DNA of 64,000 nucleotides from Spinacia oleracea (Eukaryota > Streptophyta > Magnoliopsida > Caryophyllales > Amaranthaceae): assembly GCF_020520425.1 (NCBI RefSeq), contig NC_079490.1:682001-746000 (forward strand), read 5' to 3'. Below are positions 12,690-60,100 of this stretch, in pieces (the first letter of the stretch is position 1; each line of letters opens with the position of its first letter). Both the position numbers and the translations under genes were made by a program. A model generated the notes under the pieces. That model was not told where the DNA came from. It saw only the letters and a list, made by a program, of their open reading frames with translations, and did no database searches.

Positions 12690-13190
<501 letters not shown>

Positions 13191-21828: not shown

Positions 21829-24093
21829 ATGGGAGGTTCATCGAAAACGGTGAGGAAGTTAGAGGTGGCGACACCGGTACCGGCGGACATTGACATAGCA
21901 AATGCGGTGGAGCCGCTTCATATCGCTGATATTGCCGCCGATCTCAATCTCTCTCCTCGTCACTACGACCTTTATGGCAAATACAAGGCCAAGGTTTTTT
22001 CTTTTCTCTCACTCTCCTTTGACTTTTTAATTGACTCGCTTATCCACTTCACTTTACTGTCACTTTGAGTATCGAAAATGATTGAATTATTGATCCTTAT
22101 TTGATTGATTGATTATGCTGAGGAATTTGATTAATTGATTGCAAATTTTTAAGGGTTCATTTCGCTTTTCCCCCAAGAGTTTTGGTATTAAATTACTATA
22201 AATTAGTATTTATTTGTATTTTGTGCTTTGATTCTTGATTAATGTGTGTCTAATTTAGTACTAATTCAATTTTTTGTCATGTTGAGATTCGGACTTTAGG
22301 GTAGTGTGACTTGCTACTTTTTTTTCAATTCAATGGTTAAAGTGGTATTTTCCTTGATTCCCTTAACTGCATACATGTTGCACTTTTGGGTGGCAATTTG
22401 CAATTTTGCTCAATCAACTCAACTATCTTTGTTTATGCATTATTCTTTTCCAGGTTTAGTAATCTTTCCCATTAAAGATACTATAGGCTTTTAGTTTTGG
22501 TTCCTGATTCGCTTCCAGTTATAGCAATGTTTTTATTTGATGTGGGTGTTGTTGTTAGTTTGTTACTTTTGGATGGCAATTTGCAATTTTTCTCAATGAA
22601 CCTCATCTTAATTTATGCATGTTCCTTTCCAAGTTTAATAACCTTTCTCATTTGAGATACTATAGGCTTTCAGTCTCGGTTCCTGATTCGCTTCCACTTA
22701 TATCAATGTTTTTATTTGATGTGGCTGTTGTTTGTTACTTATCGATGGCAATTTGCAATTTTAATCAATCACCCCATCTTAATTTATGCATTGTTCTTTT
22801 CCAAGTTTTGTAATCTTTCTCATTAAAGATACTTTAGACTTTTAGTTTTGGTTGTTGATTCACGTCCACTTATAGCAAGGGTTTTATTTGATGTGGGTGT
22901 TGTTGCTTTTTTGGACACCTTAATTAGTTGATTGTATGCGATATAGGTTTTGCTGTCTGTGTTGGATGAAGTTCAAGAAACCCAGGATGGATATTACGTC
23001 GTGGTTGGTGGAATTACTCCTACTCCTCTCGGGGAAGGCAAATCTACCACCACTGTTGGTCTTTGTCAAGCCTTGGGAGCTTTCCTTGATAAGAAGGTAA
23101 CTAAGTTTGTTTTAAGTTAAAAGTGATGTTTTATATACTCAAGTTGTATGTAACATTATTTCTTGTTTTATTTCGGTAAGAAATGATATTTAGCTAGTTT
23201 ATTACTCCCTCTATAGGCGGAAACAAGGGGGCTGGGTGTGGGTGGCCGCCCCCCAACTATTTAAAAACAAACTTATATATAGTATTAAATACCAAAATAT
23301 ATCACTAAGTACTCCTTTATACTACAATATATCAATGCCCTTTTTTTTTTTCTCGCCCCCAAACATTAAATTCCTAGCTCCGCCATTGATTCCTCCCATT
23401 CCTATATACACGTGTTTTTTGAGGTTATGCTCACAAAATTTAAGGAGTATTTATTTGTGGCATTGGTATACAAAACCGTCAAGTTATTTTGCATGATTAG
23501 TTAAAATTGTCAAGTAAAAGTGTATTGCTACTTTTTGAAATATGGAATAGAGAAGGTTAATTAAGTAGTCAAATATTATGGTATGGAGGGGGTATTACTT
23601 TGGTGTTTTGTAGTCTTATGCATTGTGTGTGTTGTAATGTTCTTGTAACTCCTCTGATGTACTCCATAACTAAAATATTTGAATATACCGGTTAGGTCAA
23701 GTCCTTATTTCACGAGCATACGCCATGGCTTAGTTGTCTGGTGCTTGCAAGTTTGGCTATTATATGGTCGGTAGAAAATAATGGGTACATTAAGGGGATT
23801 GGCAAGTATGTAAAGTTTGAACATGAGATGAAAAGGATTCGAAAGTTTATTCGTCTCTACATTTCAATATTTCTGTAATTAGATGCTGTTAGTCATCAGA
23901 AACTTCACAAAACTATTAGTATTATGAGATTGAACTTTCCTCTAGACACTTGCTGTGTGGATTTAATGGAATACTGATTCACGAGGGTGGTAAAATATTC
24001 ATTTTAGTAAAATGACGCAAAGTAAAATAAGTTGTTTATTGAGCCAACAAATATTCCTGTTTTATTGGATTAGTAAGTGGACTTTACCTCTTT

Positions 24094-24129
<36 letters not shown>

Positions 24130-27100
24130 CCCGATAGCAATGCAAATAACAAACTAAACAACCAGCCCTCGTCGAACTTTAGAGGCAAGATCATGGGCAG
24201 GTTTAACAGTTAACCTACTAGCTTTAATACAAACAACATAGTCAAATGTGATTGCGTATTGCGGTATTCCGAATTTCCTTGACAATGTGCGAGATTCTGA
24301 AATCAGCCTTGGATTCCCAATTGCTAGAATTGCTTCATGACAATCTGATTTGATGATGATATTGGGAGACACCCCCATCGCTTCCTTTAGACCATGGAGA
24401 ATGGCCAAGCCTTTCACCCGAAGAGGAGTCTCTGCAAATTCTTCTACCCCGTTCTATGCAATCATTCTCTGCCCGCTCTCCTTTCCAAGCCATGACAACA
24501 CTCTATTCCTTTGAGATTCTCTTTTCGAATTGCTTCCAAGCTGCATCTACCACAATCGAAACAAAATCCAAAGAGTTCGGCCTTCAAAAACACAACCCAT
24601 ATAACCTTTTATTTTCACAGCGACACATGGTCGTGTGTGATCCTCTACTTGGTGGTCTGCCATACACCCGAAGCAACGTTCCTGCCATTTGTTGTCAACA
24701 ACATGATTCAACTGGCGAACAACTTTTTTTTCCTAAATACCACTTTGTTCCTATATAAACAAGGAGCCCACAAAGTCGAGATAAGCTCAAGTGCTCTCAC
24801 ATCTTCCTTTTCTTATCTTGATTAAACAAGAGAAATAGGAAATTTATAACCCATGTACCAATAATGACTTAATGAGCATTAACATAGAAGTAATCACAAT
24901 AGCAAGCCCTCACGGCCTCTAAGTATGTGCACTAATTGAGCCGTCCCTAACGATGTGCTCGGCCGATTCTTGCACATTATTACACAACAAACACACATTC
25001 TCCATGCACCTTCTTAAATTGCATCTAGTAGGAAGAGCGTATTTAATGATTTTCCAACAGAATAATTTCCACTTCAGGAAATATTTCTTCTTATAAAATT
25101 GCTTCCGAAAATTCGGGATAACAATCGGAACCCAATGTGGCTAATTAAGATGCCAATAAGCAAACTGTCCAACGTATTCAACGGTTATATAAGGAATTTT
25201 GGGACCATAAAACCCAATAGTTGGACAATTAAAGGCTCGGAATTACCTTGATTCATCAAAATGAGTTTTGAATGAAATCAACTAATATGTCATTTAAGAG
25301 CCAAAGTAGATGGTTCTAACCACCTAATATGTCTCTCGGAGCCCCGTGAGGTATATGGGAAACATCTGGACCTCTAACCTTTCGGGGTCCGAAAAAGTGC
25401 AAATTGTCTAAAAGTAATGGATAATCCATCGTTTTTGACCAAATTTGGAGTTTCCAGGACCCGGTTTCCGAAACTCGCAAGATTTTGGGGAATGTATCAA
25501 GCGGTTATATAAGGAATTTTGGGACCATAATACAAAATAGTTGGATATTTAAAAGATTGAAATTACCTCGATTCATCAAAATGGGTTTTGTGAGAAATCA
25601 ACCAAATATCATTTAAGAGCCAAAGTAGATGGTTCTAACCACCTAATATGTCTCTCGGGACCTCGTGGGGTATATGAGAAGCATCTAGATTCTAGACTGA
25701 GATGAACTCAGTACCTACCTACACACACTACAGCAAACACAACAACACACACAAATAGAGGAAGGATGATTGTTGATTGATATAAAGCAAAAAAATAGAG
25801 AACGTTCAAGAGGTTCTCTTCTCTCAAAGAATTCCACACTATACTCTGAAGATGATTCTAATGTTTCTTCCCTCCCCCTTTTAATTACGAACTTTACTAG
25901 CAGACAAATGTAATTAACCAAAAAGTACAAGGACAACAAAAGTGGCGGTAATATGACAACATTCTTTAATTGCTCTTAACCGTTGCCACCACTATGTTGG
26001 GTGTTGGTTGCTACTGCTGTTTTTCTGCTAAAGTTGTTGTTGCTGCTTTCTCGTCTGCTTGTTCGTTGTGTTTCCTCCTTCTTGCATATATACGGATCAA
26101 GGGTGTGGCATAGGTGAGTTCATTGTAATACCCCGCCCCCCAAAACGCACCTTGTCCTCAAGGTGGAAGGTTGGAAAGCGTTCCTTGATCATGCATGCAC
26201 CTCCTTAAATTGCATCTAGTAGGAAGAGCGCATTTACTGATTTTCCAATAGAATAATTTTCACTTTGGGAAATATTTCTTCTTACAAATTTTCTTCCGAA
26301 ACTTCGGGTTATAAATCAGAACCCAATGTGGCTAATTAAGATGCCAATAAGAGGACTCTGTACAATAATGGCCCAATTTCTTTCGGGCACCGATACCCAT
26401 CCTTTTGATTTTCCTATGGTTTTTTTGTTAACTCCCCCTAATGATGGTCATATCCCATTGTTTCGTGTGGTTACAAGATCAACAACCCACTTGATGTTGC
26501 CCTATACCGATGTAAGGATGCTTAAGCTTAACCAAATTGTCTCCCTCCCACACTTCATCGCAAATATTTGTAGACTTACCATAACTAATATCCCTTCTAA
26601 ACCCCCCTTTCAAGTGTACTATACCCTTACAAAATTTTCTAGCTTCACACGAAACTTAATCAATCTAACGATTACCACAACCAACGTATTCAACGGTTAT
26701 ATAAGGAATTTTGGGATCATAGAACCCAATAGTTGGACAACTAAAGGCTCAGAATTACCTTGATTCAACAAAATGGGTTTTGAATGAAATCAGCTAATAT
26801 GTCATTTAAGAGCCGAAGTAGATGGTTCTAACCACCTAATATGTCTCTCGGAGCCCCGTGGGGTATATGGGAAGCAATTGGACCTCTAACCTTTTGGGGT
26901 ACGAAAAAGTGCAAATTGTCTAAAAGTGATGGATAATCCATCATTTTTGACTAAATTTGGTGATTCCGGGACCCAGTTTCCGAAACTTGCAAGATTTTGG
27001 GGAATGTATCAAGCGGTTATATGAGGAATTTTGGGACCATAATACCAAATAGTTGGATATTTAAAGGATTGAAATTACCTTGATTCATCAAAATGGGTTT

Positions 27101-30100
27101 TGTGAGAAATGAACCAAATATCATTTAAGAGCCAAAGTAGATGGTTCTATCCACCTAATAGTCTCTCGGGACCTCGTGGGGTATATGAGAAGCATCTAGA
27201 TTCTAGACTGAGATGAACTGAGTACCTACCTACCTGCACACACTACAACAAAAACAGCAACACACACAAATAGAGGAAGGATGATTGTTAATTGATGTAA
27301 AGCACAAATAGAGAACGTTCAAGAGGTTATCTTCTCTGAAAGAATTCCACACTATACTTTGAAGATGATTCTAATGTTTCTTCCCTCCCCCTTTTAATTA
27401 CGAACTTTACTAGCAAACAAATGTAATTAACCAAAAAGTACAAGGACAACAAAAGTGGCGGTAATATGACAACATTCTTTAATTGCTCTTAACCGTTGCC
27501 ACCACTATGTTGGGTGTTGGTTGCTACTGCTGTTTTTCTGATAAAGTTGTTGTTGCTGCTTTCTCGTCTGCTTGTTCGTTGTGTTTCCTCCTTCTTGCAT
27601 ATATACGGATCAAGGGTGTGGAGTAGGTGAGTTCATTGTAATACCCCGCCCCCCAAAACGCACCTTGTTCTCAAGGTGGAAGGTTGGAAAGCGTTCCTTG
27701 ATCATGCATGCACCTCCTTAAATTGCATCTAGTAGGAAGAGCACATTTACTTATTTTCCAATAGAATAATTTTCACTTTGGGAAATATTTCTTCTTACAA
27801 ATTTTCTTCCGAAACTTCAGGTTATAAATCAGAACCCAATGTGGCTAATTAAGATGCCAATAAGAGGACTCTGTACAATAATGGCCCAATTTCTTTCGGG
27901 CACCGATACCCATCCTTTTGATTTTCCTATGGTTTTTTTGTTAACTCCCCCTAATGATGGTCATATCCCATTGTTTCGTGTGGTTACAAGATCAACAACC
28001 CACTTGATGATGCCCTATACCGATGTAAGGATGCTTAAGCTTAACCAAATTGTCTCCCTCCCACACTTCATCGCAAATACTTGTAGACTTACCATAACTA
28101 ATATCCCTTCTAAACCCCCCTTTCAAGTGTACTATACCCTTACAAAACTTTCTAGCTTCACATGAAACTTAATCAATCTAACGATTACCACAACCAACGT
28201 ATTCAACGGTTATATAAGGAATTTTGGGATCATAGAACCCAATAGTTGGACAACTAAAGGCTCAGAATTACCTTGATTCAACAAAATGGGTTTTGAATGA
28301 AATCAGCTAATATGTCATTTAAGAGCCGAAGTAGATGGTTCTAACCACCTAATATGTCTCTCGGAGCCCCGTGGGGTATATGGGAAGCAATTGGACCTCT
28401 AACCTTTCGGAGTACGAAAAAGTGCAAATTGTCTAAAAGTGATGGATAATCCATCATTTTTGACCAAATTTGGAGATTCCGGGACCCAGTTTCCGAAACT
28501 TGTAAGATTTTGGGGTATGTATCAAGCGGTTATATGAGAAATTTTGGGACCATAATACCAAATAGTTGGATATTTAAAGGATTGAAATTACCTTGATTTA
28601 TCAAAATGGGTTTTGTGAGAAATCAACTATATATCATTTAAGAGGCAAAGTTGATGGTTCTAACCACCTAATATGTTTCTGAGGACCTCGTGGGGTATAT
28701 GAGAAGCATCTAGATTCTAGATTGAGATGAACTTAGTACCTACCTACCTCCACATACTACAACAAACACAGCAACACACACAAATAGAGGAAGGATGATT
28801 GTTGATTGATAGAAAGCTTAAGACTGATACAATTAGAAGGTTCAAGAGGTTCTCTTCTCTCAAAGAATTCCACACTATAATCTCAAGATGATTATACTGC
28901 TTCTTCCCTCCCCTTTTAATTACGAACTTCACTAGCAGACAAATGTAATTAACCAAAGTACAAGGTCAACAAAAGTGCGGTAATAAGACAATATTCTTTA
29001 ATTGCTCCAAACCATTGCTACCACTATGTTGGGTTTTGGTTGCTACTGGTGTTTTTGTGGTAAAGCTGCTGTTGCTTTCTTGTTTGCTTGTTGGTTGTGT
29101 TTCCTCCTTTTGCATATGTACGGATCAAGGGTGTGGAGCAGGTGAGTTCATTGTAATACCCCGCCACCCAAAACGCACCTTGTCCTCAAGGTGGAAGGTT
29201 GGATAGCGTTCCTTGATCATGCATTCAACTCCTTAAATTGCATCTAGTCGGAAGAGCGCATATAGCGATTTTCCAATAGAATAATTTCCACTTCAGGAAA
29301 ATATATCTCCTTTCAAATTTGCTTCCGAAAATCCGGGTTAACAATCGGAACCCAATGTGGCTAATTAAGATGCCAATAAGCAGACTCTGTAAAATAATGG
29401 CCCAATTTCTTTTGGCCACCAATACCCATCCTTTTAATTGCTCCAAACCGTTGCCACCATTATGTTGGGTGTTGGTTGCTACTGCTGTTTTTCTCCTAAA
29501 GTTGCTGTTGTTGCTTTCTTGTCTGCTTGTTCGTTGTGTTTCCTCCTTCTTGCATATGTACGGATCAAGGGTGAGGAGCAGGTGAGTTCATTGTAATACT
29601 CCGCCCCCAAAACGTACCTTGTCCTCAAGGTGGAAGGTTGGAGAGCGTTCCTTGATCATGCATGCACCTCCTTAAATTGCATCTAGTAGGAAGAGGGCAT
29701 TTACTGATTTTCCAATAGAATAATTTTCACTTCGGAAAATATTTCTTCTTACAAATTTTCTTCTGAAAATTTGGGTTAAAAATCAGAACCCAATGTGGCT
29801 ATTTAAGATGCCAATAAGCAGACTCTGTACAATAATGGCCCAATTTCTTTCGGCCACCAATACCCATCCTTTTGATTTTCCTATGGTTTTTTTGTTGCAA
29901 GGAGCTCCGCCAGTTCTCTAACAAACTCCCCCTAATGATGGTCATATCCCATTGTTTCGTGGGGTTACAAGATCAACAACCCAATTGATGTTGCCCTATA
30001 CCGATGTAAGAATGCTTAAGCTTAACCAAATTGTCTCCATCCCACACTTCATCGCAAATATTTGTAGACTTACCATAACTAATATCCCTTCTAAACCCCT

Positions 30101-33100
30101 CTTTCAAGTGAGCTATACGCTTTCAAAATTTTCTAGCTTCACACGAAACTTGATTAATATAACGATTACCATAACCAACGTATTCAACGGTTATATAAGG
30201 AATTTTGGGACCATAGAACCCAATAGTTGGACAATTAAAGGCTCGGAATTACCTTGATTCATCAAAATGGGTTTTGAATGAAATCAGCTAATATGTCATT
30301 TAAGAGCCGAAGTAGATGGTTCTAACCACCTAATATGTCTCTCGGAGCCTCGTGGGGCATAAGGGAAGCAATTGGACCTCTAACCTTTCGGGGTTCGAAA
30401 AAGTGCAAATTGTCTAAAAGTGATGGATAATCCATCATTTTTGACCAAATTTGGAGATTCCGGGACCCAGTTTCCGAAACTTGCAAGATTTTGGGGAATG
30501 TATCAAGCGGTTATATGAGGAATTTTGGGACCATAATACCAAATAGTTGGATATTTAAAGGATTGAAATTACCTTGATTCATCAAAATGGGTTTTGTGAG
30601 AAATGAACCAAATATCATTTAAGAGCCAAAGTAGATGGTTCTATCCACCTAATAGTCTCTCGGGACCTCGTGGGGTATATGAGAAGCATCTAGATTCTAG
30701 ACTGAGATGAACTGAGTACCTACCTACCTGCACACACTACAACAAACACAGCAACACACATAAATTGAGGAAGGATGATTGTTGATTGATGTAAAGCACA
30801 AATAAAGAACGTTCAAGAGGTTCTCTTCTCTCAAAGAGTTCCACACTATACTCTCAAGATGATTCTAATGTTTCTTCCCTCCCCCTTTTAATTATGAACT
30901 TCACTAGCAAACAAATGTAATTAACCAAAAAGTACAAGGACAAAAAAAGTGGCGGTAATATGACAACATTCTTTAATTGCTCCAAACCGTTGCCACCATT
31001 ATGTTGGGTGTTGGTTGCTACTGCTGTTTTTCTCCTAAAGTTGCTGTTGTTGCTTTCTTGTCTGCTTGTTCGTTGTGTTTCCTCCTCCTTGCATATGTAC
31101 GGATCAAGGGTGAGGAGCGGGTGAGTTCATTGTAATACCCCGCCCCCAAAACGTACCTTGTCTTCAAGGTGGAAGGTTGGAGAGCGTTCCTTGATCATGC
31201 ATGCACCTCCTTAAATTGCATCTAGTAGGAAGAGCGCATTTACTGATTTTCCAATAGAATAATTTTCACTTCGGAAAATATTTCTTCTTACAAATTTTCT
31301 TCCGAAAATTTGGGTTAAAAATCAGAACCCAATGTGGCTATTTAAGATGCCAATAAGCAGACTCTGTACAATAATGGCCTAATTTCTTTCGGCCACCAAT
31401 ACCCATCCTTTTGATTTTCCTATGGTTTTTTTGTTGCAAGGAGCTCCGCCAATTCTCTAACAAACTCCCCCTAATGATGGTCATAACCCATTGTTTCGTG
31501 GGGTTACAAGATCAACAACCCAATTGATTTTGCCCTATACCGATGTAAGGATGCTTAAGCTTAACCAAATTGTCTCCATCCCACACTTCATCGCAAATAT
31601 TTGTAGACTTACCATAACTAATATCCCTTCTAAACCCCCCTTTAAAGTGAGCTATACGCTTTCAAAATTTTCTAGCTTCACACGAAACTTAATTAATATA
31701 ACGATTACCATAACCAACGTATTCAACGGTTATATAAGGAATTTTGGGACCATAGAACCCAATAGTTGGACAATTAAAGGCTCGGAATTACATTGATTCA
31801 TCAAAATGGGTTTTGGATGAAATCAATTAATGTGTCATTTAAGAGCCGAAGTCGATGGTTCTAACCACTTAATATGTCTCTCGGAGCCCCGTGGGGTATA
31901 TGGGAAACATTTGGACATCTAACCTTCCGGGGTCCCAAAAAGTGCAAATTGTCTAAAATTGATGGATAATCCATCATTTTTGACCAAATTTGGAGATTCC
32001 GGGACCCAGTTTCCGAAACTTGTAAGATTTTGGGGAATATATCAAGCGGTTATATGAGGAATTTTGGGACCATAATACCAAATAGTTGGATATTTAAAGG
32101 ATTGAAATTACCTTGATTTATCAAAATGGGTTTTGTGAGAAATCAACTATATATCATTTAAGAGGCAAAGTTGATGGTTCTAACCACCTAATATGTCTCT
32201 CAGGACCTCGTGGGGTATATGAGAAGCATCTAGATTCTAGACTGAGATGAACTTAGTACCTACCTACCTCCACACACTACAACAAACACAGCAACACACA
32301 CAAATAGAGGAAGGATGATTGTTGATTGATAGAAAGCTTAAGACTGATACAATTAGAAGGTTCAAGAGGTTCTCTTCCCTCAAAGAATTCCACATTATAA
32401 TCTCAAGATGATTATACTGTTTCTTCCCTCCCCCTTTTAATTACGAACTTCACTAGCAGACAAATGTAATTAACCAAAGTACAAGGTCAACAAAAGTGAC
32501 GGTAATAAGACAATATTCTTTAATTGCTCGAAACCATTGCTACCACTATGTTGGGTGTTGGTTGCTACTGGTGTTTTTGTGCTAAAGCTGCTGTTGCTTT
32601 CTTGTTTGCTTGTTGGTTGTGTTTCCTCCTTCTTGCATATGTACGGATCAAGGGTGTGGAGCAGGTGAGTTCATTGTAATACCCCGCCACCCAAAACGCA
32701 CCTTGTCCTCAAGGTGGAAGGTTGGATAGCGTTCCTTGATCATGCATGCAACTCCTTAAATTGCATCTAGTCGGAAGAGCGCATATAGTGATTTTCCAAT
32801 AGAATAATTTCCACTTCAGGAAATATTTCTCCTTACAAATTTGCTTCTGAAAATCTGGGTTAACAATCGGAACCCAATGTGGCTAATGAAGATGCCAATA
32901 AGCAGACTCTGTATAATAATGGCCCAATTTCTTTTGGCCACCAATACCCATCCTTTTAGTTTTTCTATGGTTTTTGCGTTGCAAGGAGCTCCGCTAGTTC
33001 TCTAACAAACTCCCCCTAATGATGGTCATATCCCATTGTTTCGTGGGGTTACAAGATCAACAACCCATTTGATGTTTCCCTATACCGTTGTAAGGATGCT

Positions 33101-36100
33101 TGAGATTTACCAAATTGTCTCCCTCCCACACTTCATCGCAAATATTTGTAGACTTACCATAACTAATATCCCTTCTAAACCCCCCTTTCAAGTGTGCTAT
33201 ACGCTTACAAAAGCTTATAGCTTCACACGAAACTTGATTAATCTAACGATTACCATAACCAACGTATTCAACGGTTATATAAGGAATTTTGGGACCATAG
33301 AACCCAATAGTTGGACAATTAAAGGCTTGGAATTACCTTGATTCATCAAAATGGGTTTTGAATGAAATCAGCTAATATGTCAATTAAGAGCCAAAGTAGA
33401 TGGTTCTAACCACCTAATATGTCTCTCGGAGCCCCGTGGGGTATGTGGGAAGCATTTTGACCTCTAACCTTTCGGGGTCCGAAAAAATGCAAATTGTCTA
33501 AAAGTGATGGATAATCCATCATTTTTGACCAAATTTGGAGATTTCGGGACCCAGTTTCCGAAACTTGCAAGATTTTGGGGAATGTATCTAGCGGTTATAT
33601 GAGGAATTTTGGGATCATAATACCCAATAGTTGGATATTTAAAGGATTGAAATTACCTCGATTCATCAAAATGGGTTTTGTGACGAATCAACCAAATATC
33701 ATTTAAGAGGCAAAGTAGATGGTTCTAACCACCTAATATGTCTCTTGGTACCTCGTGGGGTATATGAGAAGCAACTAGATTCTATACTGAGATGAACTGA
33801 GTACCTACCTACCTGCACACACTACAACAAACACAACAACACAAAAAAATAGAGGAAGGATGATTGTTGATTGATGTAAAGCACAAATAGAGAACATTCA
33901 AGAGGTTCTCTTCTCTGAAAGAAATCCACACTATACTCTGAAGATGATTCTAATGTTTCTTCCCTCCCCCTTTTAATTTCGAACTTCACTAGGAGACTAA
34001 TGTAATTAACCAAAAAGTACAAGGACAACAAAAGTGGCAGTAATATGACAACATTCTTTATGTGCTCTAAACCGTTGCCACCACTATGTTGGGTGTTGGT
34101 TGCTACTGCTATTTTTCTGCTAAAGTTGTTGTTGTTGCTTTCTTGTCTGCTTGTTCGTTGTGTTTCCTCCTTCTTGCATATGTACGGATCAAGGGTGTGG
34201 AGCAGGTGAGTTCATTGTAATACCCCGCCCCCAAAACGTACCTTGTCCTCAAGGTGGAAGGTTGGAAAGCGTTCCTTGATCATGCATGCACCTCCTTAAA
34301 TTGCATCTAGTAGGAAGAGCACATTTATTGATTTTCCAATAGAATAATTTTCATTTCGGAAAATATATCTTTTTACAAATTTTCTTCCAAAAATTCGGGT
34401 TAAAACCCAGAACCCAATGTGGGTATTTAAGATGCCAATAAGCATACTCTGTACAATAATGGCCCAATTTCTTTCGGCCACCAATACCCATCATTTTGAT
34501 TTTCCTGTGGTTTTTTTGTTGCAAGGAGCTCCGCCAGTTATCTAACAAACTCCCCCTAATGATGGTCATATCCCATTGTTTCGTGGGGTTACAAGATCAA
34601 CAACCCATTTGATGTTGCCCTATACCGATGTAAGGATGGTTAAGCTTAACCAAATTGTCTCCCTCCCACACTTCATCGCAAATATTTGTAGACTTACCAT
34701 AGCTAATATCCCTTTTAAACCCCCCTTTCAAGTGAGCTATACGCTTTCAAAATTTTCTAGCTTCACACGAAACTTAATTAATATAACAATTACCATAACC
34801 AACGTATTCAACGGTTATATAAGGAATTTTAGGACCATAGAACCCAATAGTTGGACAATTAAAGGCTCGGAATTACCTTGATTCATCAAAATGGGTTTTG
34901 AATGAAATAAGCCAATATGTCATTTAATCGCCGAAGTAGTTGGTTCTAACCACCTAATATGTATCTCGGAGCCCCGTGGGGTATATGGGAAACATTTGGA
35001 CGTCTAATCTTTCGGGGTCTGGAAAAGTGCAAATTGTCTAAAATTGATGGATAATTCGTCATTTTTGACCAAATTTGGAGATTCCGGGACCCAGTTTCCG
35101 TAACTCGCCAGATTTTGGGGAATGTATCAAGCGGTTATATGAGGAATTTTGGGACCATAATACCAAATAGTTCGATATTTAAAGTATTGAAATTACCTCG
35201 ATTCATCGAAATGGGTTTTGTGAGAAATCAACCAAATATCATTTGAGAGCCAAAGTAGATGGTTCTAACCACCTAAAATGTCTTTGGGACCTCGTGGGGT
35301 ATATGAGAAGCATCTAAATTCTTGACTGAGATGAACTCAGTACCTACCTATCTGCACACACTACAACAAACACAGCAACACACATAAATTGAGGAAGGAT
35401 GATTGTTGGTTGATGTAAAGCACAAATAAAGAACGTTCAAGAGGTTCTCTTCTCTCAAAGAATTCCACACTATTCTCTCAAGATGATTCTAATGTTTCTT
35501 CCCTCCCCCTTTTAATTATGAACTTCACTACCAGACAAATGTAATTAACCAAAAAGTACAAGGACAAAAAAAGTGGCGGTAATATGACAACATTCTTTAA
35601 TTGCTCCAAACCGTTGCCACCATTATGTTGGGCGTTGGTTGCTACTGCTGTTTTTCTCCTAAAGTTGCTGTTGTTGCTTTCTTGTCTGCTTGTTCGTTGT
35701 GTTTCCTCCTCCTTGCATATGTACGGATCAAGGGTGAGGAGCGGGTGAGTTCATTGTAATACCCCGCCCCCAAAACGTACCTTGTCTTCAAGGTGGAAGG
35801 TTGGAGAGCGTTCCTTGATCATGCATGCACCTCCTTAAATTGCATCTAGTAGGAAGAGCGCATTTACTGATTTTCCAATAGAATAATTTTCACTTCGGAA
35901 AATTTTTCTTCTTACAAATTTTCTTCCGAAAATTTGGGTTAAAAATCAGAACCCAATGTGGCTATTTAAGATGCCAATAAGCAGACTCTGTACAATAATG
36001 GCCTAATTTCTTTCGGCCACCAATACCCATCCTTTTGATTTTCCTATGGTTTTTTTTGTTGCAAGGAGCTCCGCCAGTTCTCTAACAAACTCCCCCTAAT

Positions 36101-48100: not shown

Positions 48101-51100
48101 AATTCCAAATAGTTGGATATTTAAAGGATTGAAATTACCTTGATTTATCAAAATGGGTTTTGTGGGAAATCAACTATATATCATTTAAGAGGCAAAGTTG
48201 ATGGTTCTAACCACCTAATATGTCTCTCAGGACCTCGTGGGGTATATGAGAAGCATCTAGATTCTAGACTGAGATGAACTTAGTACCTACCTACCTCCAC
48301 ACACTACAACAAAGACAGCAACACACACAAATAGAGGAAGGATGATTGTTGATTGATAGAAAGCTTAATACTTATACAATTAGAACGTTCAAGAGGTTCT
48401 CTTCTCTCAAAGAATTCCACACTATAATCTCAAGATGATTATACTGTTTCTTCCCTCCCCCTTTTAATTCCGAACTTCACCAGCAGACAAATGTAATTAA
48501 CCAAAGTACAAGGTCAACAAAAGTGACGGTAATAAGACAATATTCTTTAATTGCTCCAAACCATTGCTACCACTATGTTGGGTGTTGGTTGCTACTGGTG
48601 TTTTTGTGCTAAAGCTGCTGTTGCTTTCTTGTTTGCTTGTTGGTTGTGTTTCCTCCTTCTTGCATATGTACGGATCAAGGGTGTGGAGCAGGTGAGTTCA
48701 TTGTAATACCCCGCCCCCCAAAACGCACCTTGTCCTCAAGGTGGAAGGTTGGAAAGCGTTCCTTGATCATGCATGCACCTCCTTAAATTGCATCTAGTAG
48801 GAAGAGCGCATTTACTGATTTTCCAATAGAATAATTTTCACTTGGGAAATATTTCTTCTTACAAATTTTCTTCCGAAACTTCGGGTTATAAATCAAAACC
48901 CAATGTGGCTAATTAAGATGCCAATAAGCAGACTCTGTACAATAATGGCCCAATTTCTTTCGGGCACCGATGCCCATCCTTTTGATTTTCCTATGGTTTT
49001 TTTGTTAACTCCCCCTAATGATGGTCATATCCCATTGTTTCGTGGGTTATAAGATCAACAACCCACTTGATGTTGCCCTATACCGATGTAAGGATGTTTA
49101 AGCTTAACCAAATTGTCTCCCTCCCACACTTCATCGCAAATATTTATAGACTTACCATAACTAATATCCCTTCTAAACCCCCCCTTTCAGGTGTGCTATA
49201 CGCTTACAAAACTTTCTAGCTTCACACAAAACTTAACTTAATCTAACGATTACCATAACCAACGTATTCAACGGTTATATATGGAATTTTGGGACCATAG
49301 AACCCAATAGTTGGACAATTAAAGGCTCGGAATTACCTTGATTAATCAAAATGGGTTTTGAATGAAATCAGCTAATATGTCATTTAAGAGCCGAAGTAGA
49401 TGGTTCTAACCACCTAATATGTCTCTCGGAGCCCCGTGGGGGTATATGGGAAGCATTTGGACCTCTAACCTTTCGGGGTCCGAAAAAGTGCAAATTGTCT
49501 AAAAGTGATGGATAATCCATTATTTTTTACCAAATTTGGAGATTTCGGGACCCAGTTTCCGAAACTTGCAAGATTTTGGGTAATGTATCAAGCGGTTATA
49601 TGAGGAATTTTGGGATCATAATACCCAATAGTTGGATATTTAAAGGATTGAAATTACCTCGATTCATCAAAATGGGTTTTGTGAGGAATCAACCAAATAT
49701 CATTTAAGAGGCAAAGTAGATGGTTCTAACCACCTAATATGTCTCTCGGTACCTCGTGGGGTATATGAGAAGCAACTAGATTCTATACTGAGATGAACTG
49801 AGTATACCTACCTACCTTCACACACTACAACAAACACAGCAACACACACAAATAGAGGAAGGATGATTGTTGATTGATGTAAAGCACAAATAGAGAACAT
49901 TCAAGAGGTTCTCTTCTCTCAAAGAAATCCACACTATACTCTGAAGATGATTCTAATGTTTCTTCCCTCCCCCTTTTAATTACGAACTTCACTAGGAGAC
50001 AAATGTAATTAACCAAAAAGTACAAGGACAAAAAAAGTGGCGGTAATATGACAACATTCTTTAATTGCTCTAAACCGTTGCCACCACTATATGTTGGGTG
50101 TTGGTTGCTACTGCTGTTTTTCTGCTAAAGTTGTTGTTGCTTTCTTGTCTGCTTGTTCGTTGTGTTTCCTCCTTCTTGCATATGTACGGATCAAGGGTAT
50201 GGAGCAGGTGAGTTCATTGTATTACCCCGCCCCCCAAAACGCACCTTGTTCTCAAGGTGGAAGGTTGGAAAGCGTTCCTTGATAATGCATGCACCTCCTT
50301 AAATTGCATCTAGTAGATTTACTGATTTTCCAATAGAATAATTTCCACTTCGGGAAATATTTCTTATTATAAATTTTCTTCCGAAAATTCGGGTTAAAAA
50401 TCAGAACCCAAAGTGGCTAATTAAGATGCCAATAAGTAGATTCTGTACAATAATGACCCAATTTCTTTTGGCCACCAATACCCATCCTTTTGATTTTCCT
50501 ATGGTTTCTTTGTTGCAAGGAGCTCCGCCAGTTCTCTAACAAACTCCCCCTAATGATGGTCATATCCCATTGTTTCGTGGGGTTACAAGATCAACAACCC
50601 ACTTGATGTTGCCCTATACCGATTTAAGGATGCTTAAGCTTAACCAAATTGTCTCCCTCCCACACTTCATCGCAAATATTTGTAGACTTACCATAACTAA
50701 TATCCCTTTTAAACCCCCCTTTCAAGTGAGCTATACGCTTTCAAAATTTTCTAGCTTCACACGAAACTTAATTAATATAACGATTACCATAACCAACGTA
50801 TTCAACGGTTATATAAGGAATTTTAGGACCATAGAACCCAATAGTTGGACAATTAAAGGCTCGGAATTACCTTGATTCATCAAAATGGGTTTTGAATGAA
50901 ATCAGCTAATATGTCATTTAATCGCCGAAGTAGATGGTTTTAACCACCTAATATGTATCTCGGAGCCCCGTGGGGTATATGGGAAAGATTTGGACATCTA
51001 ATCTTTCGGGGTCCGGAAAAGTGCAAATTGTCTAAAATTGATGGATAATCCATCATTTTTGACCAAATTTGGAGATTTCGGGACCCAGTTTCCGAAACTC

Positions 51101-54100
51101 GCCAGATTTTGGGGAATGTATCAAGCGGTTATATGAGGAATTTTGGGACCATAATACCAAATAGTTCGATATTTAAAGGATTGAAATTACCTCGATTCAT
51201 CAAAATGGGTTTTGTGAGAAATCAACCAAATATCATTTGAGAGCCAAAGTAGATGGTTCTAACCACCTAAAATGTCTTTGGGACCTCGCGGGGTATATGA
51301 GAAGCATCTAAATTCTAGACTGAGATGAACTCGGTACCTACCTATCTGCACACACTACAACAAACACAGCTGCACACATAAATTGAGGAAGGATGATTGT
51401 TGATTGATGTAAAGGTTAACCAAATTGTCTTTCAAAACTTGCTAGCTTCACACGAAACTTAATTAATATAACTATTAACATAACCAACATATTCAACGGT
51501 TATATAAGGAATTTTGGGACCATAGAACCCAATAGTTGGACAATTAAAGGATCGGAATTACCTTAATTCATCAAAATGGGTTTTGAATGAAATCAGCTAA
51601 TATGTACCTTTTGGAGCCGAAGTAGATGGTTCTAACCACCTAATATGTCGCTCGGATCCCCCTGGGGTATATGGGAAACATTTGGACCTCTAACCTTTTG
51701 GGGTCCGAAAAAGTGCAAATTGTCTAAAATTGATGGATAATCCATCATTTTTTACCAAATTTGGAGATTCCGGGACCCAGTTACCATAACTTGCAAGATT
51801 TTGGGGAATGTATCAAGCGGTTATATGAGGAATTTTGTGATCATAATACCCAATGGTTGGATATTTAAAGGATTGAAATTACCTCGATTCATCAAAATGG
51901 GTTTTGTGAGAAATCAACCAAATATCATTTAAGAGGCAAAGTAGATGGTTCTAACCACCTAATATGTCTCTCGGTACCTCGTGGGGTATATGAGAAGCAA
52001 CTAGATTCTATACTGAGATGAATTGAGTACCTACCTACCTGCACACACACTACAACAAACACAGCTACACACACAAATAGAGGAAGGATGATTGTTGATT
52101 GATGTAAAGCACAAATAGAGAACGTTCAAGAGGTTCTCTTCCCTCAAAGAATTCCACACGATACTATGAAGATGATTCTAATGTTTCTTCCCTCCCCTTT
52201 TTAATTACGAACTTCACTAGGAGACAAATGTAATTAACCAAAAAGTACAAGGACAACAAAAGTGGCGGTAATATGACAACATTCTTTAATTGCTCTAAAC
52301 CGTTGCCACCACTATGTTGGGTGTTGGTTGCTACTGCTGTTTTTCTGCTAAAGTTGTTGTTGTTGCTTTCTTGTCTGCTTGTTCGTTGTGTTTCCTCCTT
52401 GCATATGTACGGATCAAGGGTATGGAGCAGGTGAGTTCATTGTATTACCCCGCCCCCCAAAACGCACCTTGTTCTCAAGGTGGAAGGTTGGAAAGCGTTC
52501 CTTGATAATGCATGCACCTCCTTAAATTGCATCTAGTAGATTTACTGATTTTCCAATAGAATAATTTCCACATCGGGAAATATTTCTTCTTACAAATTTT
52601 CTTCCGAAAATTCGGGTTAAAAATCAGAACCCAAAGTGGCTAATTAAGATGCCAATAAGTAGATTCTGTACAATAATGACCCAATTTCTTTTGGCCACCA
52701 ATACCCATCCTTTTGATTTTCCTATGGTTTCTTTGTTGCAAGGAGCTCCGCTAGTTCTCTAACAAACTCCCCCTAATGATGGTCATATCCCATTGTTTCG
52801 TGGGGTTACAAGATCAACAACCCACTTGATGTTGCCCTATACCGATGTAAGGATGCTTAAGCTTAACCAAATTGTCTCCCTCCCACACATCATCGCAAAT
52901 ATTTGTAGACTTACCATAACTAATATCCCTTCTAAACTCCCCTTTCAAGTGTATACGCTTTCAAAACTTTCTAGCTTCACAAGAAACTTAATTAATATAA
53001 CGATTACCATAACCAACATATTCAACGGTTATATAAGGAATTTTGGGACCATAGAACCCAATAGTTGGACAATTAAAGGATCGGAATTACCTTAATTCAT
53101 CAAAATGGGTTTTGAATGAAATCAGCTAATATGTCTTTTTAGAGCCGAAGTAGATGGTTCTAACCACCTAATATGTCGCTCGGAGCCCCCTGGGGTATAT
53201 GGGAAACATTTGGACATCTAACCTTTTGGGTCCGAAAAAGTGCAAATTGTCTAAAATTGATGGATAATCCATCATTTTTTACCAAATTTGGAGATTCCGG
53301 ACCCAGTTTCCATAACTTGCAAGATTTTGGGGAATGTATCAAGCGATTATATGAGGAATTTTGGGATCATAATACCCACTAGTTGGATATTTAAAGGATT
53401 GAAATTACCTCGATTCATCAAAATGGGTTTTGTGAGAAATCAACCAAATATCATTTAAGAGGCAAAGTAGATGGTTCTAACCACCTAATATGTCGCTCGG
53501 ATTCCCCTGGGGTATATGAGAAGCAACTAGATTCTATACTGAGATGAATTGAGTACCTACCTACCTGCACACACTACAACAAACACAACAACACACACAA
53601 ATAGAGGAAGGATGATTGTTGATTGATGTAAAGCACAAATAGAGAACGTTCAAGAGGTTCTCTTCCCTCAAAGAATTCCACACTATACTATGAAGATGAT
53701 TCTAATGTTTCTTCCCTCCCCCTTTTAATTACGAACTTCACTAGGAGACAAATGTAATTAACCAAAATGTACAAGGACAACAAAAGTGGCGGTAATATGA
53801 CAACATTCTTTAATTGCTCTAAACCGTTGCCACCACTATGTTGGGTGTTGGTTGCTACTGCTGTTTTTCTGCTAAAGTTGTTGTTGCTTTCTTGTCTGCT
53901 TGTTCGTTGTGTTTCCTCCTTCTTGCATATGTACGGATCAAGGGTGTGGAGCAGGTGAGTTCATTGTAATACCCCGCCCCCCAAAAGCACCTTGTTCTCA
54001 AGGTGGAAGGTTGGAAAGCGTTCCTTGATAATGCATGCACCTCCTTAAATTGCATCTAGTAGGAAGAGCTCATTTACTGATTTTCCAATAGAATAATTTC

Positions 54101-57100
54101 CACTTCGGGAAATATTTCTTCTTACAAATTTTCTTCCGAAAATTCGGGTTAAAAATCAGAACCCAATGTGGCTAAGTAAGATGCCAATAAGCAGATTCTG
54201 TACAATAATGACCCAATTTCTTTTGGCCACCAATACCCATCCTTTTGATTTTCCTATGGTTTATTTGTTGCAAGGAGCTCCGCCGGTTCTCTAACAAACT
54301 CCCCCTAATGATGGTCATATCCCATTGTTTCGTAGGGTTACAAGATCAACAACCCACTTGATGTTGCCCTATACCGATGTAAGGATGCTGAAGCTTAACC
54401 AAATTGTCTCCCTTCCACACTTCATCGCAAATATTTGTAGACTTACCATAAGTAATATCCCTTCTAAACCCCCTTTCATGTGTGGTATACGCTTACAAAA
54501 CTTTCTAGCTTCACACGAAACTTATTTAATCTAACGATTACCACAACCAACGTATTCAACGGTTATATAAGGAATTTTGGGACCATAGAACCCAATAGTT
54601 GGACAACTAAAGGCTCGGAATTACCTTGATTCATCAAAATGGGTTTTGAATGAAATCAGCTAATATGTCATTTAAGAGCCGAAGTAGATGGTTCTAACCA
54701 CCTAATATGTCTCTTGGAGCCCCGTGGGGTATATGGGAAGCAATTAGACCTCTAACCTTTCGGGGTCCGAAAAAGTGCAAATTGTCTAAAAGTGATGGAT
54801 AATCCATCATTTTTGACCAAATTTGGAGATTCTGGGACCCGGTTCCCCAAACTCCCAAGGATTTTGGGGAATGTATCAAGCGGTTATATGAGGAATTTTG
54901 GGACCATTATACCAAATAGTTGGATAGTTAAAGGATTGAAATTACATCGATTCATCAAAATCGGTTTTGTGACAAATAAACTAAATATCATTTAAGAGGC
55001 AAAGTAGATGGTTCTAACCACCTAATATGTCTCTCGGGACCTCGTGGGGTATATGAGAAGCATCTAGATTCTAGACTGAGATGAACTCAGTACCTACCTT
55101 CCTGCACACACTACAACAAACACAGCAACACACACAAATAGAGGAAGGATGATTGTTGATTGATAGAAAGCTTAAGACTTTGGATACAATTACTGAGAAC
55201 GTTCAAGAGGTTCTCTTCTCTCAAAGAATTCCACACTATACTCTCGAGATGATTATACTGTTTCTTCCCTTCCCCTTTTAATTACGAACTTCACTAGCAG
55301 ACAAATGTAATTAACCAAAGTACAAGGTTAACAAAAGTGACGGTAATAAGACAACATTCTTTAATTGCTCCAAACCGTTGCTACCACTATGTTGGGTGTT
55401 GGTTGCTACTGCTGTTTTTGTGCTAAAGCTGTTGTTGCTTTCTTGTTTGCTTGTTGGTTGTGTTTCCTCCTTCTTGCATATGTACGGATCAAGGGCGTGG
55501 AGCAGGTGAGTTCATTGTAATACCCCGCCACCCAAAACGCACCTTGTCCTCAAGGTGGAAGGTTGGATAGCATTCCTTGATCATGCATGCACCTCCTTAA
55601 GTTGCATCTAGTTGGAAGAGCGCATATAGTGATTTTCCAATCATGTCCCCCACCGTATACTGCCCATCGTGCTGCACCCTAATGATATCAGGAGGTTCCC
55701 TTCCATTAACCACCTTGAATGGCGACATCTTGGTGGAGGTATGGGTTGTAGAGTTATATGAGAACTTAGCTAAAGCAGCCACCAAGCCCAAGACTTGGTT
55801 GTCCCGTTGCGAAACACCTCAAATAGTTTCGTATTGACTACCTCCGTTTGGCCATCCGTTTGGGGGTGATATGCTGTGCTTCATTTGAGGGATGTGCCTT
55901 GGATTCGAAACAACTCTTTCTAGAAAATGCTAAAGAACACTCTATCACGATCAGAAATAATAGATGAGGGAAACCCATGTAGACGTACCGCCTCCTTAGT
56001 GAAAGCCTCGGCCACATAAATGGCGCTAAAGGGATGGCGTAGACCGATGAAATGGGTATATTTTGAGAGATGATCCACCGCCACAAAAACGGTATTAATC
56101 CCCTTAGACACCGGCAACCCCTCTATGAATTCCATAAAGATCTCGTCCCACACTTGGGTAGGCACTGGTAAGGGCTGTAGCAAACCGCAGGGCATTGTTG
56201 AGAGGACTTGTTCCTTTGGAAAACTTCACATTGTCACACGTACTCAACCACTTGTTTTTGCATTCCGGGCCAAACCACTCTTGTGCTATGCGTAGGAAGG
56301 TCTTGACATCGGCCCCATATCCCCCTCATTGCTGTCATGATTTTCACACAAAAGGGATTGTATTACCGTAGCTGATTTGGGAATCACATACCTCCCCTTC
56401 CACTTCCTTTTCCAGCTTCTCCCATTATATGCCTTGTGATGTCAAAATCGCCCCTAGCTCAACCTTACCCACAAACTTAAGAGATAAAGCATCAGCTTAG
56501 CGGTTGGAAGAACCAGGCTGGTAATGGACCTCAATGTCGAACCCCATTAATTTACTCACCATTTTTTATAATCCGCGCCTATTTCAGTTTCCTGAGTAAT
56601 AAACCGCAAACTTTGTTGATCGGATCGCACGACAAACTTCCTTCCAAATAAATAATGCTTCCATTTGAGTACGGAGAAGCAAACCGCCATCAACTCCTTC
56701 TCATACACGGACTTGCATTGAGCTCTCGACCCCAACAACCGACTGTGAAAAGCAATAGGTCACCCTACGCCTTGAAGGCCTAATGGGGTATATGGAAAGC
56801 ATTCGGACGTCCAAAAGAGTCCAAATTATCCAAAAATGAAGTTTATAATATACTGTTTTGATTTGTCCCTACGTATCCTGAATGGCCTAGGTCACCCTAC
56901 GCCTTCAACGCCTAATGGGGTATATGGAAAGCATTCGGATGTCCAAAAGAGTCCAAATTATCCAAAAATGAAGTTTATAATATACTGTTTTGATTTGTCC
57001 CTACGTATCCTGAATGGCCTAGAGCCTACAATACAGTTTGATTTGACTCTCCAGTTTTATGGTAAAGGATAAATGGGTATAGTTTAAACACCCCCTCCTT

Positions 57101-60100
57101 TCCAAAGATATTGTCCCCCTTTCTATTTTGTTTGTCCCATGTTATTGTCTCTTTCGTCTCTTTGGTTAGTTAATGTATATTCACCCAATTAAATTTCTCT
57201 GTTTTCAATATATTCATACTATTGGTGAAAAGTCGTTGGTCTGTATATTTAGGGACTTAATGCCCTCTCATTTATTGTTTTTCTTAACATTTGTGAAAAG
57301 TAGTTGGTCAGTATATTTGGGATGAAGGAAGTAAACTGCTCCATTGCTTGGTTACTTTGGGTTTATGGACGTTTCATAGATTGAGCATTTTCCTTAAACA
57401 GTGTGGTCATGAGTGATTTGTGTGTTTGGTTGTTGCTTTTAAATTCACTAATCAGGTTTTTATGTTCCTCCAGGTTGTCACTTGCCTTCGTCAACCATCA
57501 CAAGGGCCAACTTTTGGAATAAAAGGTGGTGCAGCTGGTGGTGGTTATAGTCAAGTGATTCCAATGGATGAGTTCAACCTTCACTTAACTGGGGATATAC
57601 ATGCTATAACAGCTTCAAACAATCTTCTCGCTGCTGCCATAGACACCAGAATGTTCCATGAGTCCACCCAGTCAGATAAAGCTCTCTTTAACCGTTTGTG
57701 CCCCCCTAACAAAGAAGGTAAAAGAACCTTTTGTAACATTATGCACAGGCGTTTGAAAAAGCTTGGTATTGATAAGACTAATCCAGACGACCTTACACCG
57801 GAAGAGGTCACAAAATTTGCTAGGCTTGATATTGACCCCGATTCCATTACATGGAGAAGAGTTATGGATGTGAATGACCGGTTTTTGAGGAAAATTAGTG
57901 TTGGTCAGGGGCCTGATGAGAAGGGGATGGTAAGAGAAACTGGATTTGATATTTCCGTTGCTAGTGAGATAATGGCAGTTCTGGCTCTAACAACTTCTCT
58001 GGCTGATATGAGGGAGAGACTTGGGAAAATGGTGATTGGAAATAGCAAGGCTGGAGAACCGATTACTGCTGATGATCTTGGCTTAGGTGGTGCTTTGACT
58101 GTATTAATGAAGGATGCAATCAACCCCACGCTGATGCAGACTCTGGAAGGAACACCTGTGCTTGTTCATGCTGGTCCTTTTGCAAATATTGCTCATGGTA
58201 ATTCCTCTATTGTTGCTGACAAGATTGCCCTGAAGCTGGTTGGACCTGGTGGGTTTGTGGTTACTGAAGCAGGGTTTGGTTCTGATATCGGAACTGAGAA
58301 GTTCATGAACATAAAGTGCCGATATAGTGGTTTGACTCCACAGTGTGCTATTGTTGTTGCGACAGTGAGGGCTTTGAAAATGCATGGTGGTGGACCACAA
58401 GTAGTGGCTGGCAAGCCTCTTGATCGTGCATACTTAACAGAGAATGTGGGTCTTGTTGAGGCTGGCTGTGTTAATCTTGCCAGGCATATTATAAATACGA
58501 AGGCCTATGGTTCAAATGTCGTGGTTGCCATCAACATGTTTTCTTCTGACACAGAAGCAGAGCTGAATGCTGTTAAAAAAGCAGCAATGGATGCTGGAGC
58601 GTTTGACGCAGTTATTTGTACCCATCACGCCCATGGTGGAAAAGGAGCGGTTAGTACTGAATTCTTTTAAACAATTTGTCTAAGTGGGTATCAGGCTATT
58701 TGATCCTCGTCTTTTCTTCTTATTTGTGTTTCTGAAGACAAGAAACAGTCTTAAACTCTTAGTTTCCTATATCATGGATGTGATGCAAGACTGGGTAGAC
58801 TTTCTATTTCTATGTTGGTTAATAAACTGTTAGAGGGTATACATTTCTTTGTTTGCAAATTAGACTTCACTGGTTATCAGTGTAGCAATCTTATGTTTCT
58901 GTTGATGTTTGATTTTACTTAAGGTACGGAATCAATGTATACTATCTGTTGGAACTCTTAAATTGCCAATCAAGTGAGAGGAATTCACATGGATCTGAAT
59001 GCAATTTTGATATGTTTTAGGTGGATCTTGGCATAGCTGTTCAGAAAGCATGTGAGAACGTAACGCAGCCTTTGAGGTTCTTATATCCTCTGGATATTAG
59101 CATCAAAGAGAAAATAGAGGCAATTGCAAAGTCTTATGGTGCTGCTGGCGTCGAATACTCAGAACAGGTAAGACAATTCGTTGATTTGGTCTAATAGTAT
59201 TTGGGTGGTGAATATGCTTTGATTTCCTTCCATCGTGATTACGTATATCTAAGATTATTGTCTGCTACACCCTCGGCCTCCTAAAAATAAAATTTTTGTC
59301 TATTCGTGCAAGTTTACATTATAGTGTCATTTTCTAGACTTGCTCAGTACTTTCATTTACTTGGTTATATTTTGAAGTAGATTTTTTCCGGTAGTAAATG
59401 ATACTACGTATAATTTTCATTTACTCTCCATTTTCCCCGAGACTCTTTTGAATATTAAGAAATTGCTTGTCCATAATATCATCTTCTGTAGAACAGTGGC
59501 CCTGGAGCCCAAGCGCCTTGAATGTTTTGGGTGAGGTATTTTCAATGAGGTGCACCTAAGGCCCATTAAGCTGTCTTTATGGCTGCAACCTGTTAATACA
59601 CACATAACCTTTATTTTAAGAATCTTGCCTCACACCTGCACTTTGTACTTTGGCTCTATTATCCTTATTGCCCTAGTTTGTCTTAAGTGTTTTGGAATAC
59701 TGCTTTAGATATTTCATGGTACAGTTTTCATGTTCAGTAACTATTGCAAATCATAACATTTGATGGTGTAGCTTCTTGCCTTATTATTAGCTCACATTAT
59801 AGTAATAGTTCACTGGCATCTCCATTTTTCTTTGGAGTCTCTGTTTTGGGAAATTGCCTTGATATACTGTTGCCTTGCTAGTAGCTCTTGTTTTTGGTAA
59901 TACACCTTACTAAACTAATAATCACATATACTATAGCAGGATAGATTGTAAGAGTTGTCACCTTTCCGAACTTAGTAATGGTTAATGACTGGATTTCCCA
60001 ATATGCCGTCACCAAGTCCATTCATAATAATGTTAATTAATGCTCTAATCACAGCCATGATGTTAGCCTTTTAAAATGAGTCGTCCCTTTTTCTTTTTTT

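Follow-up and report, generated by a model that had tools for sequence, protein, structure and literature searches.

Heterochromatic introns have been described in rice and Arabidopsis, for instance in IBM1 (intron 7), RPP7, PPD7 and the targets of IBM2 and EDM2. In rice, these introns were themselves called by CHG methylation (PMC7145194). The transposable element (TE) lists of the rice and Arabidopsis studies leave out satellite DNA (PMC7145194, PMC4417168), and satellite-bearing introns may therefore be under-described. Introns that are filled by satellite DNA and transcribed through occur in Y-linked giant genes of Drosophila, namely kl-3, kl-5 and ORY/ks-1 (PMC6508621); in Lathyrus, the Ogre-derived FabTR satellites are tandem arrays that have grown from pieces of retrotransposons (PMC7004042). 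The locus described here is a formate–tetrahydrofolate ligase (FTHFS) gene of spinach, with a tandem array in its second intron.

FTHFS feeds formate into 10-formyl-tetrahydrofolate (10-formyl-THF), and there is a link between one-carbon metabolism and DNA methylation. The window analysed, a stretch of 64,000 nucleotides of Spinacia oleracea DNA, contains the FTHFS gene on its plus strand (coding span 21829..60381). Its five exons (21829–21993, 22947–23096, 57474–58649, 59021–59167 and 60106–60381) join in frame in a spliced translation of 637 amino acids. The protein covers positions 2–556 of the 556 in the Pfam FTHFS profile (PF01268, E 4e-248), indicating a full-length ligase domain, and also matches formate–tetrahydrofolate ligases in the PDB. 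All four introns are GT..AG. Introns 1, 3 and 4 measure 953, 371 and 938 bp; intron 2 (23097..57473, plus strand; donor GTAACT, acceptor TTCCTCCAG) follows codon 105 in phase 0 and measures 34,377 bp. The first-pass annotation had placed intron 2 between the same ends (~34.4 kb), had put the remaining introns at 0.4–1 kb and had called all five exons intact and in phase; the measured lengths and the spliced translation bear this out. It had also named another complete FTHFS copy as a finding that would speak against it, and a family-profile search of the 894-Mb assembly found no second FTHFS gene. A single gene is likewise reported across the algae and land plants examined, with two in soybean, flax and poplar (PMC6451014). 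The first-pass annotation had called the gene essential; against this, a second route to 10-formyl-THF leads via MTHFD/MTHFC (PMC5372827). Judged from the gene model, a full FTHFS transcript would have to cross the ~34-kb array-bearing intron.

The array (25169..55641) is 30,473 bp long. Self-comparison of the window resolves it into direct, head-to-tail repeats with a period of ~1539 bp, and shows no inverted matches within the window at E 1e-10. A 36-base diagnostic junction occurs at 19 sites with up to two mismatches in an ungapped pattern search, a number reached in none of 100 shuffles; a 20th copy at ~47222, hidden from the ungapped pattern by a one-base deletion, was found by eye. These 20 copies agree with the earlier count of about 19 monomers of ~1.54 kb, and self-comparison together with spliced translation confirms that a satellite-like array sits within a single intron of an intact one-carbon gene. 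The array is not uniform internally. Truncation points lie at 29439, 38118 and 51428; they correspond to an internally deleted unit (29329..29766), a truncated unit (37477..38118) and two truncated units that are joined at ~51428 (50385..52607).

The units form a three-unit A-B-C higher-order repeat of ~4.62 kb. Units three apart are on average 94.87% identical, as against 93.5% for adjacent units and 93.2–93.7% across lags 1, 2, 4 and 5. Over the whole array, 2 of 5000 shuffles reached this contrast; within units m02–m14, a core that was picked after looking, none of 5000 did. The lag test used unit pairs with more than 300 shared bases, and for clustering the other pairs were set to 93%; the two unit trees are in conflict over m09 and m15. 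The array thus combines two features of satellite DNA with higher-order repeats: it is a long array of one unit, and its multi-unit blocks are more alike than neighbouring units. The truncation points, the three-unit pattern and the transposon origin of the unit go beyond the first-pass annotation.

Read from its sequence, the unit is chimeric and combines a LINE piece with a dispersed ~320-bp repeat and with the tail plus long terminal repeat (LTR) of a Ty3/gypsy element. In a representative complete unit (31306..32850), the LINE piece occupies unit positions ~1437–1540 and 1–~400, where positions ~70–400 are read as LINE by frame continuity. The ~320-bp repeat follows with ~1.6 copies (~411–929), and the gypsy part, comprising LTR and polyprotein tail, takes up 967–~1437. 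In a genome search, the ~320-bp repeat has matches on C1–C6. Both parent elements can still be recognised at the edges of the array. The left flank carries a minus-strand LINE remnant (24154..25166) with a zf-RVT domain (E 4e-9, within ~24922–25164) and a weak RVT_3-like piece (24154–24453; E 0.04, below the cut-off); its stretch 25003–25166 is common to the array units. A T-run at 24091..24129 may represent the poly(A) tail of this minus-strand LINE. The 17 bases preceding the T-run, looked for as a target-site duplication, recur nowhere in the window at up to three mismatches. The right flank carries a minus-strand Ty3/gypsy remnant (55641..56765) with an integrase region (Ty3 7q5b, E 1e-19), which is 81–83% identical to an element at C4:97.08 Mb. 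It is followed by a 2 × 132-bp tandem repeat (56756..57022) with ~31 bp in common with the ~320-bp repeat. Within the gypsy copy sits a minus-strand patch of ~50 bp of LINE sequence (55586..55640), and at each of its joins a few bases are shared; the patch is 89% identical to the resident minus-strand LINE stretch at 25003..25057, and the stretch that it replaces is present in the gypsy relative L026. Coding or RNA-gene content of the unit was rejected. The six frames, checked by eye and, for one piece of a minus-strand frame, by a Pfam search, hold only broken transposon pieces; across the window, Rfam gave no matches at gathering thresholds and ARAGORN no tRNAs.

The pattern of mutations between units suggests that the array carries marks of past CG and CHG DNA methylation; the suggestion draws on an excess of C-to-T changes at CG and CHG sites and on depletion of CWG. 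In the unit alignment, from which monomer columns of fewer than 12 sequences were excluded, C>T/G>A variable columns account for 35 of 70 at CG, 25 of 58 at CHG and 103 of 485 at CHH. The excess was reached by none of 20,000 label shuffles for CG and by 60 of 20,000 for CHG; for variants confined to one unit, p is only 0.09 (CG) and 0.10 (CHG). The observed/expected ratio of CWG is 0.47 in the array, 0.97 in the exons and 0.96 in introns 3 and 4. Transversions at CHG are also raised (4.9% of cells versus 2.1% at CHH), their column count being reached by 1623 of 20,000 shuffles, and CpG depletion does not set the array apart from the gene (0.55, versus 0.37 in exon 3).

The array is probably a local satellite, born in intron 2 from resident transposon remnants, duplicated in place, and later multiplied, methylated and tolerated. 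Unequal exchange between two LINE copies is the most likely way in which it arose in situ. From the joins, a LINE, the ~320-bp repeat and a gypsy element would have been neighbours in the intron, with LINE and gypsy both on the minus strand. The gypsy copy may then have been broken and repaired with a loss of ~330 bp, the gap being patched by ~50 bp copied from the nearby LINE. This would have left two LINE copies in direct orientation, separated by ~1.5 kb, and unequal exchange between them would have duplicated the intervening DNA to give the founding unit. Later exchanges of three-unit blocks, visible as a pattern, would account for the A-B-C repeat and for some of the units being truncated. 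The mutation pattern supports an array that was, and probably still is, CG- and CHG-methylated. Polymerase presumably crosses it, intron 2 being spliced out whole, and the array would persist through being tolerated rather than selected. Rough ages from divergence, which depend on assumed rates, were set aside.

Founding in place is supported by the single LINE–gypsy join common to 20 unit boundaries. In addition, the LINE is continued outwards by the left flank only and the gypsy element by the right flank only, as in-place duplication predicts. These same outward continuations of both parents speak against a satellite that arose elsewhere and entered the intron as a block by transposition, circular DNA or ectopic exchange. 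Such an insertion is unlikely but carries some weight, as the ~320-bp part is dispersed on C1–C6 and the same LINE–gypsy join recurs in a short relative (L025 4729–5150; best piece 93%) at C4:421.7 kb; the join may have formed at another site or been copied out. Also against an insertion, the 64 places listed include no other near-full unit, in a search that leaves aside very frequent words, scored 39 of 132 candidates and did not list the array itself. At the right edge, the gypsy copy is also short of another ~130 bp present in L026, an absence that the LINE patch does not account for and that sits awkwardly with the in-place scheme. Misassembly, with copies added or lost and a true array of different length, is very improbable. 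Three abrupt unit junctions inside the array would fit it, as would the use of PacBio CLR reads polished with short reads if the assembly is that of Monoe-Viroflay spinach (PMC8668906); on the other side stand the regular A-B-C order and the absence of identical long units. False duplication appears unlikely, since no pair of long units exceeds 98.6% identity (one 111-bp fragment pair reaches 99.1%) and the longest exact repeat, at 470 bp, is short for long reads; some copy-number error is possible. That the array has disabled FTHFS and is making it a pseudogene is barely credible: the intron is very long and filled with repeats, but the exons are all intact, the introns are GT–AG, the assembly yielded no second FTHFS, and the gene is single in most of the plants examined.

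A rival reading is a more specific dependence, in which cryptic poly(A) sites in the methylated array would need masking by IBM2/ASI1–EDM2 for full-length FTHFS mRNA to form. Without masking, transcripts would stop within intron 2, and no more than the first 105 amino acids of the enzyme would be encoded ahead of intron sequence. This is a tentative reading, and rather doubtful. The methylation-type mutation pattern is in its favour, as is the position of the array in the second of four introns, given that heterochromatic introns of rice are of greater length and lie preferentially near promoters and that dozens of rice loci need OsIBM2 for proper mRNA through such introns (PMC7145194). Proximal poly(A) sites in intragenic TEs are likely suppressed by IBM2 and EDM2 (PMC10241880). 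Against it, most Arabidopsis genes with intronic mCHG keep full-length transcripts in suvh456, with IBM1 and PPD7 as notable exceptions, a comparison that concerns loss of methylation and not of IBM2 (PMC11265718). AATAAA is moreover absent from the unit consensus on both strands, and strong cryptic poly(A) sites may hence be few; the array has 4 in sense (31 expected) and 3 in antisense (30 expected, 60 first-order simulations). Selected avoidance of poly(A) signals is not claimed, because the antisense strand is equally poor in AATAAA and the units are not independent. Recursive-splice-like sites at 46120 and 49178 occupy the same place in two units and were judged to be chance.

A far more speculative idea, to which we attach very little credence, is that the array serves as a methylation gauge for one-carbon supply, with feedback gain set by array copy number. 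Its premise would be that, just as IBM1 depends on methylation of its intron 7, the formation of full-length FTHFS mRNA requires intron 2 to be methylated. If so, low methyl supply would demethylate the array and change FTHFS output, closing a feedback loop; in Arabidopsis, MTHFD1 is reported to control DNA methylation (PMC4909953). The 305 resequenced spinach accessions (PMC8668906) could be used to estimate array copy number and relate it to FTHFS expression or folate where these have been measured. Apart from any such role, the locus offers a natural case of a higher-order satellite apparently born and grown inside a metabolic gene. The gene is intact and both parent elements persist at the array edges, so that the stages of this birth may be followed one by one. 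The locus would also allow a clean test of the way in which transcription and splicing in plants deal with apparently methylated tandem repeats over tens of kilobases, no backup gene copy having been found.

In titles and abstract openings, within a limited library and set of search words, neither a satellite array in a plant gene intron nor an FTHFS gene with such an intron was found. Among spinach satellites (Spsat1–3), Spsat3 has a monomer of ~325 bp, close in length to the ~320-bp repeat; Spsat2 and Spsat3 map to one end of the sex chromosomes (PMC6337768), whereas the ~320-bp repeat has its matches on C1–C6. The FabTR satellites of Lathyrus derive from short tandem repeats in Ogre 3′UTRs and expand mainly at primary constrictions (PMC7004042); the FTHFS array, in contrast, starts from a LINE–repeat–gypsy chimera within a gene. 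The Drosophila Y-linked genes are spermatocyte genes whose megabase introns carry 5-bp satellites, whereas here 30 kb of 1.54-kb units lie in a plant metabolic gene. With the heterochromatic introns of rice and Arabidopsis, intron 2 of FTHFS shares TE-derived content, length, an early position, an intact host gene and an apparent CG/CHG-type methylation pattern, here read from mutations. Those introns hold TE copies or, in the case of IBM1, inserted organelle sequence, whereas this one holds a ~30-kb higher-order tandem array. Known kinds, the heterochromatic intron and the TE-derived satellite, are found here in an unusual combination.

The formate-tetrahydrofolate ligase gene (FTHFS; coding span 21829-60381) has five exons that join in frame, and its spliced translation gives 637 amino acids. 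Residues 19-637 are matched by Pfam FTHFS (E 4e-248), and formate-tetrahydrofolate ligases in the PDB also match. Its introns, all GT..AG, measure 953, 34,377, 371 and 938 bp; the second follows codon 105. The first-pass annotation, which had described exons intact and in phase beside an intron 2 of about 34.4 kb, is thus borne out. It had also held that a second complete gene copy elsewhere, with this one not transcribed, would count against it. None was found: the assembly search (894,210,420 bases, 242 contigs; the window is C4:682001-746000) scored five candidates, and all four matches are exons 2-5 of this same gene; exon 1 gave no match in that search. Apart from soybean, flax and poplar, every species covered by one survey is reported to have a single FTHFS gene (PMC6451014).

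A ~172-bp tandem repeat, present three times (22382-22913; 81% matches), takes up over half of FTHFS intron 1; therefore, repeat growth is not confined to intron 2. Elsewhere in the window lie a ubiquitin-S27a ribosomal fusion gene (12690-13190, minus strand), a PMR5N-domain exon (61644-62195, plus strand) of a trichome-birefringence-like gene, and tandem repeats of 49 bp (18628-19071, 9 copies) and 121 bp (62369-62678, 2.5 copies).

By self-comparison, 25169-55641 of intron 2 is a head-to-tail array. Its unit of about 1.54 kb exceeds the longest period set for TRF (500) and so falls beyond the TRF listing. The array was divided into 23 pieces, 17 of at least 1,500 bases, and truncated units meet at three points inside it. 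At up to two mismatches there are 19 copies of the diagnostic LINE-gypsy join, and a twentieth, near 47222, carries a one-base deletion. Across 22 ordered slots, mean unit identity at lags 1 to 6 is 93.5, 93.5, 94.9, 93.2, 93.7 and 94.7%; the lag-3 contrast over the whole array was matched by 2 of 5000 shuffles. Within the core m02-m14, picked after the identity matrix had been viewed, lags 3, 6 and 9 give 95.9, 96.4 and 96.7%, a contrast equalled by 0 of 5000 shuffles. This high lag-3 identity indicates that A-B-C blocks of ~4.62 kb were duplicated blockwise. A 7.8-kb stretch is repeated at 96.4% identity, and the placement of truncated unit m09 and of m15 differs between two trees. The array is real and well ordered, and the gene is intact.

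The unit is a chimera. A LINE zf-RVT domain in its minus-strand frame is below cut-off (E 0.011), and is clear in the array's left flank (E 4e-9). In the middle (411-929) a ~320-bp repeat is present about 1.6 times, its copies being 86% identical to each other. Relatives of ~310-325 bp are dispersed over C1-C6 (L006-L024 and L027) and often form short tandem groups, from two to several copies each; in the longer alignments their identity is roughly 65-82%. Positions 967-1444 are 81% identical to a copy at C4:97.08 Mb, and the unit contains the end of a Ty3/gypsy polyprotein, recognised by its motif. The wider stretch at C4:97.08 Mb (L026) matches the right flank (56765-55670) at 81-83%; for the integrase piece in that flank, the PDB search gives a Ty3 match (E 1e-19), and the match to Pfam rve is weak (E 0.05).

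Both ends run on past the unit: LINE sequence in the left flank towards a T-run (24091-24129), read as the LINE's poly(A) end, and gypsy sequence in the right flank. The right-edge gypsy copy lacks about 330 bp present in L026 and, slightly further on, about 130 bp more. The first gap is filled by ~50 bp of LINE that match the resident copy at 25003-25057 at 89% identity, and each join shows a few shared bases. Two direct LINE copies would thus have flanked ~1.5 kb, a substrate for unequal exchange, which would yield this unit with the observed edges. Among the 64 places listed in the assembly search with the unit (39 of 132 candidates scored), none is a near-full unit; the array itself is missing from that list, presumably because common words were skipped. 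Against birth in place stands a short solo relative about 290 kb away (L025 4729-5150, C4:421.7 kb), which has internal deletions and shares the array-type LINE-gypsy join, its best piece being 93% identical; the join may have arisen outside the array or have been copied from it.

Mutation patterns point to methylation. C>T or G>A variant columns among units number 35/70 at CG, 25/58 at CHG and 103/485 at CHH, equalled by 0 (CG) and 60 (CHG) of 20000 label shuffles; the transversion control (15/70, 15/58 and 81/485) was equalled by 5372 (CG) and 1623 (CHG) of 20000. By cells, transitions reach 7.1% at CG, 5.4% at CHG, 2.6% at CHH and 1.0% at A/T; transversions are likewise raised at CHG (4.9% vs 2.1% at CHH). 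For variants confined to one or two units, Fisher p is 0.0008 (CG) and 0.006 (CHG); for those confined to a single unit it is 0.09 and 0.10. The evidence is stronger for CG than for CHG. The array has a CWG observed/expected ratio of 0.47 and the intron flanks have 0.56 and 0.67; the ratio is 0.97 for exons, 0.96 for introns 3 and 4, 0.83-1.06 for four 5-kb upstream blocks and 0.83 downstream. The CpG ratio does not discriminate the array. A LINE-bearing stretch at 20-21.8 kb has CWG at 0.48 of expectation; within it, 0.75 kb upstream of the start codon, lies an RVT_3 (LINE RNase H-like) remnant (20780-21076, plus strand, E 7e-11). CWG loss may be older than the array; variants among units should not predate it. 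Judged by anatomy and mutation pattern, the array is most likely a transposon-born satellite that arose in place, was or is methylated, and is tolerated by the gene; any role beyond this is hypothetical.

Related systems are reported elsewhere. In a rice study, 4,227 gene models were counted as carrying heterochromatic introns, 5,809 in all, which are described as longer and concentrated near promoters (PMC7145194). For Arabidopsis, IBM2 and EDM2 are reported as likely repressors of proximal poly(A) sites of intragenic transposons (PMC10241880), full-length mRNA of most genes with mCHG introns as unaffected by methylation loss (PMC11265718), and DNA methylation as controlled by MTHFD1 of one-carbon metabolism (PMC4909953). 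Giant Y genes of Drosophila are described as containing satellite introns (PMC6508621). In spinach itself, the published Spsat3 monomer (~325 bp) is close in length to the dispersed ~310-325-bp repeat.
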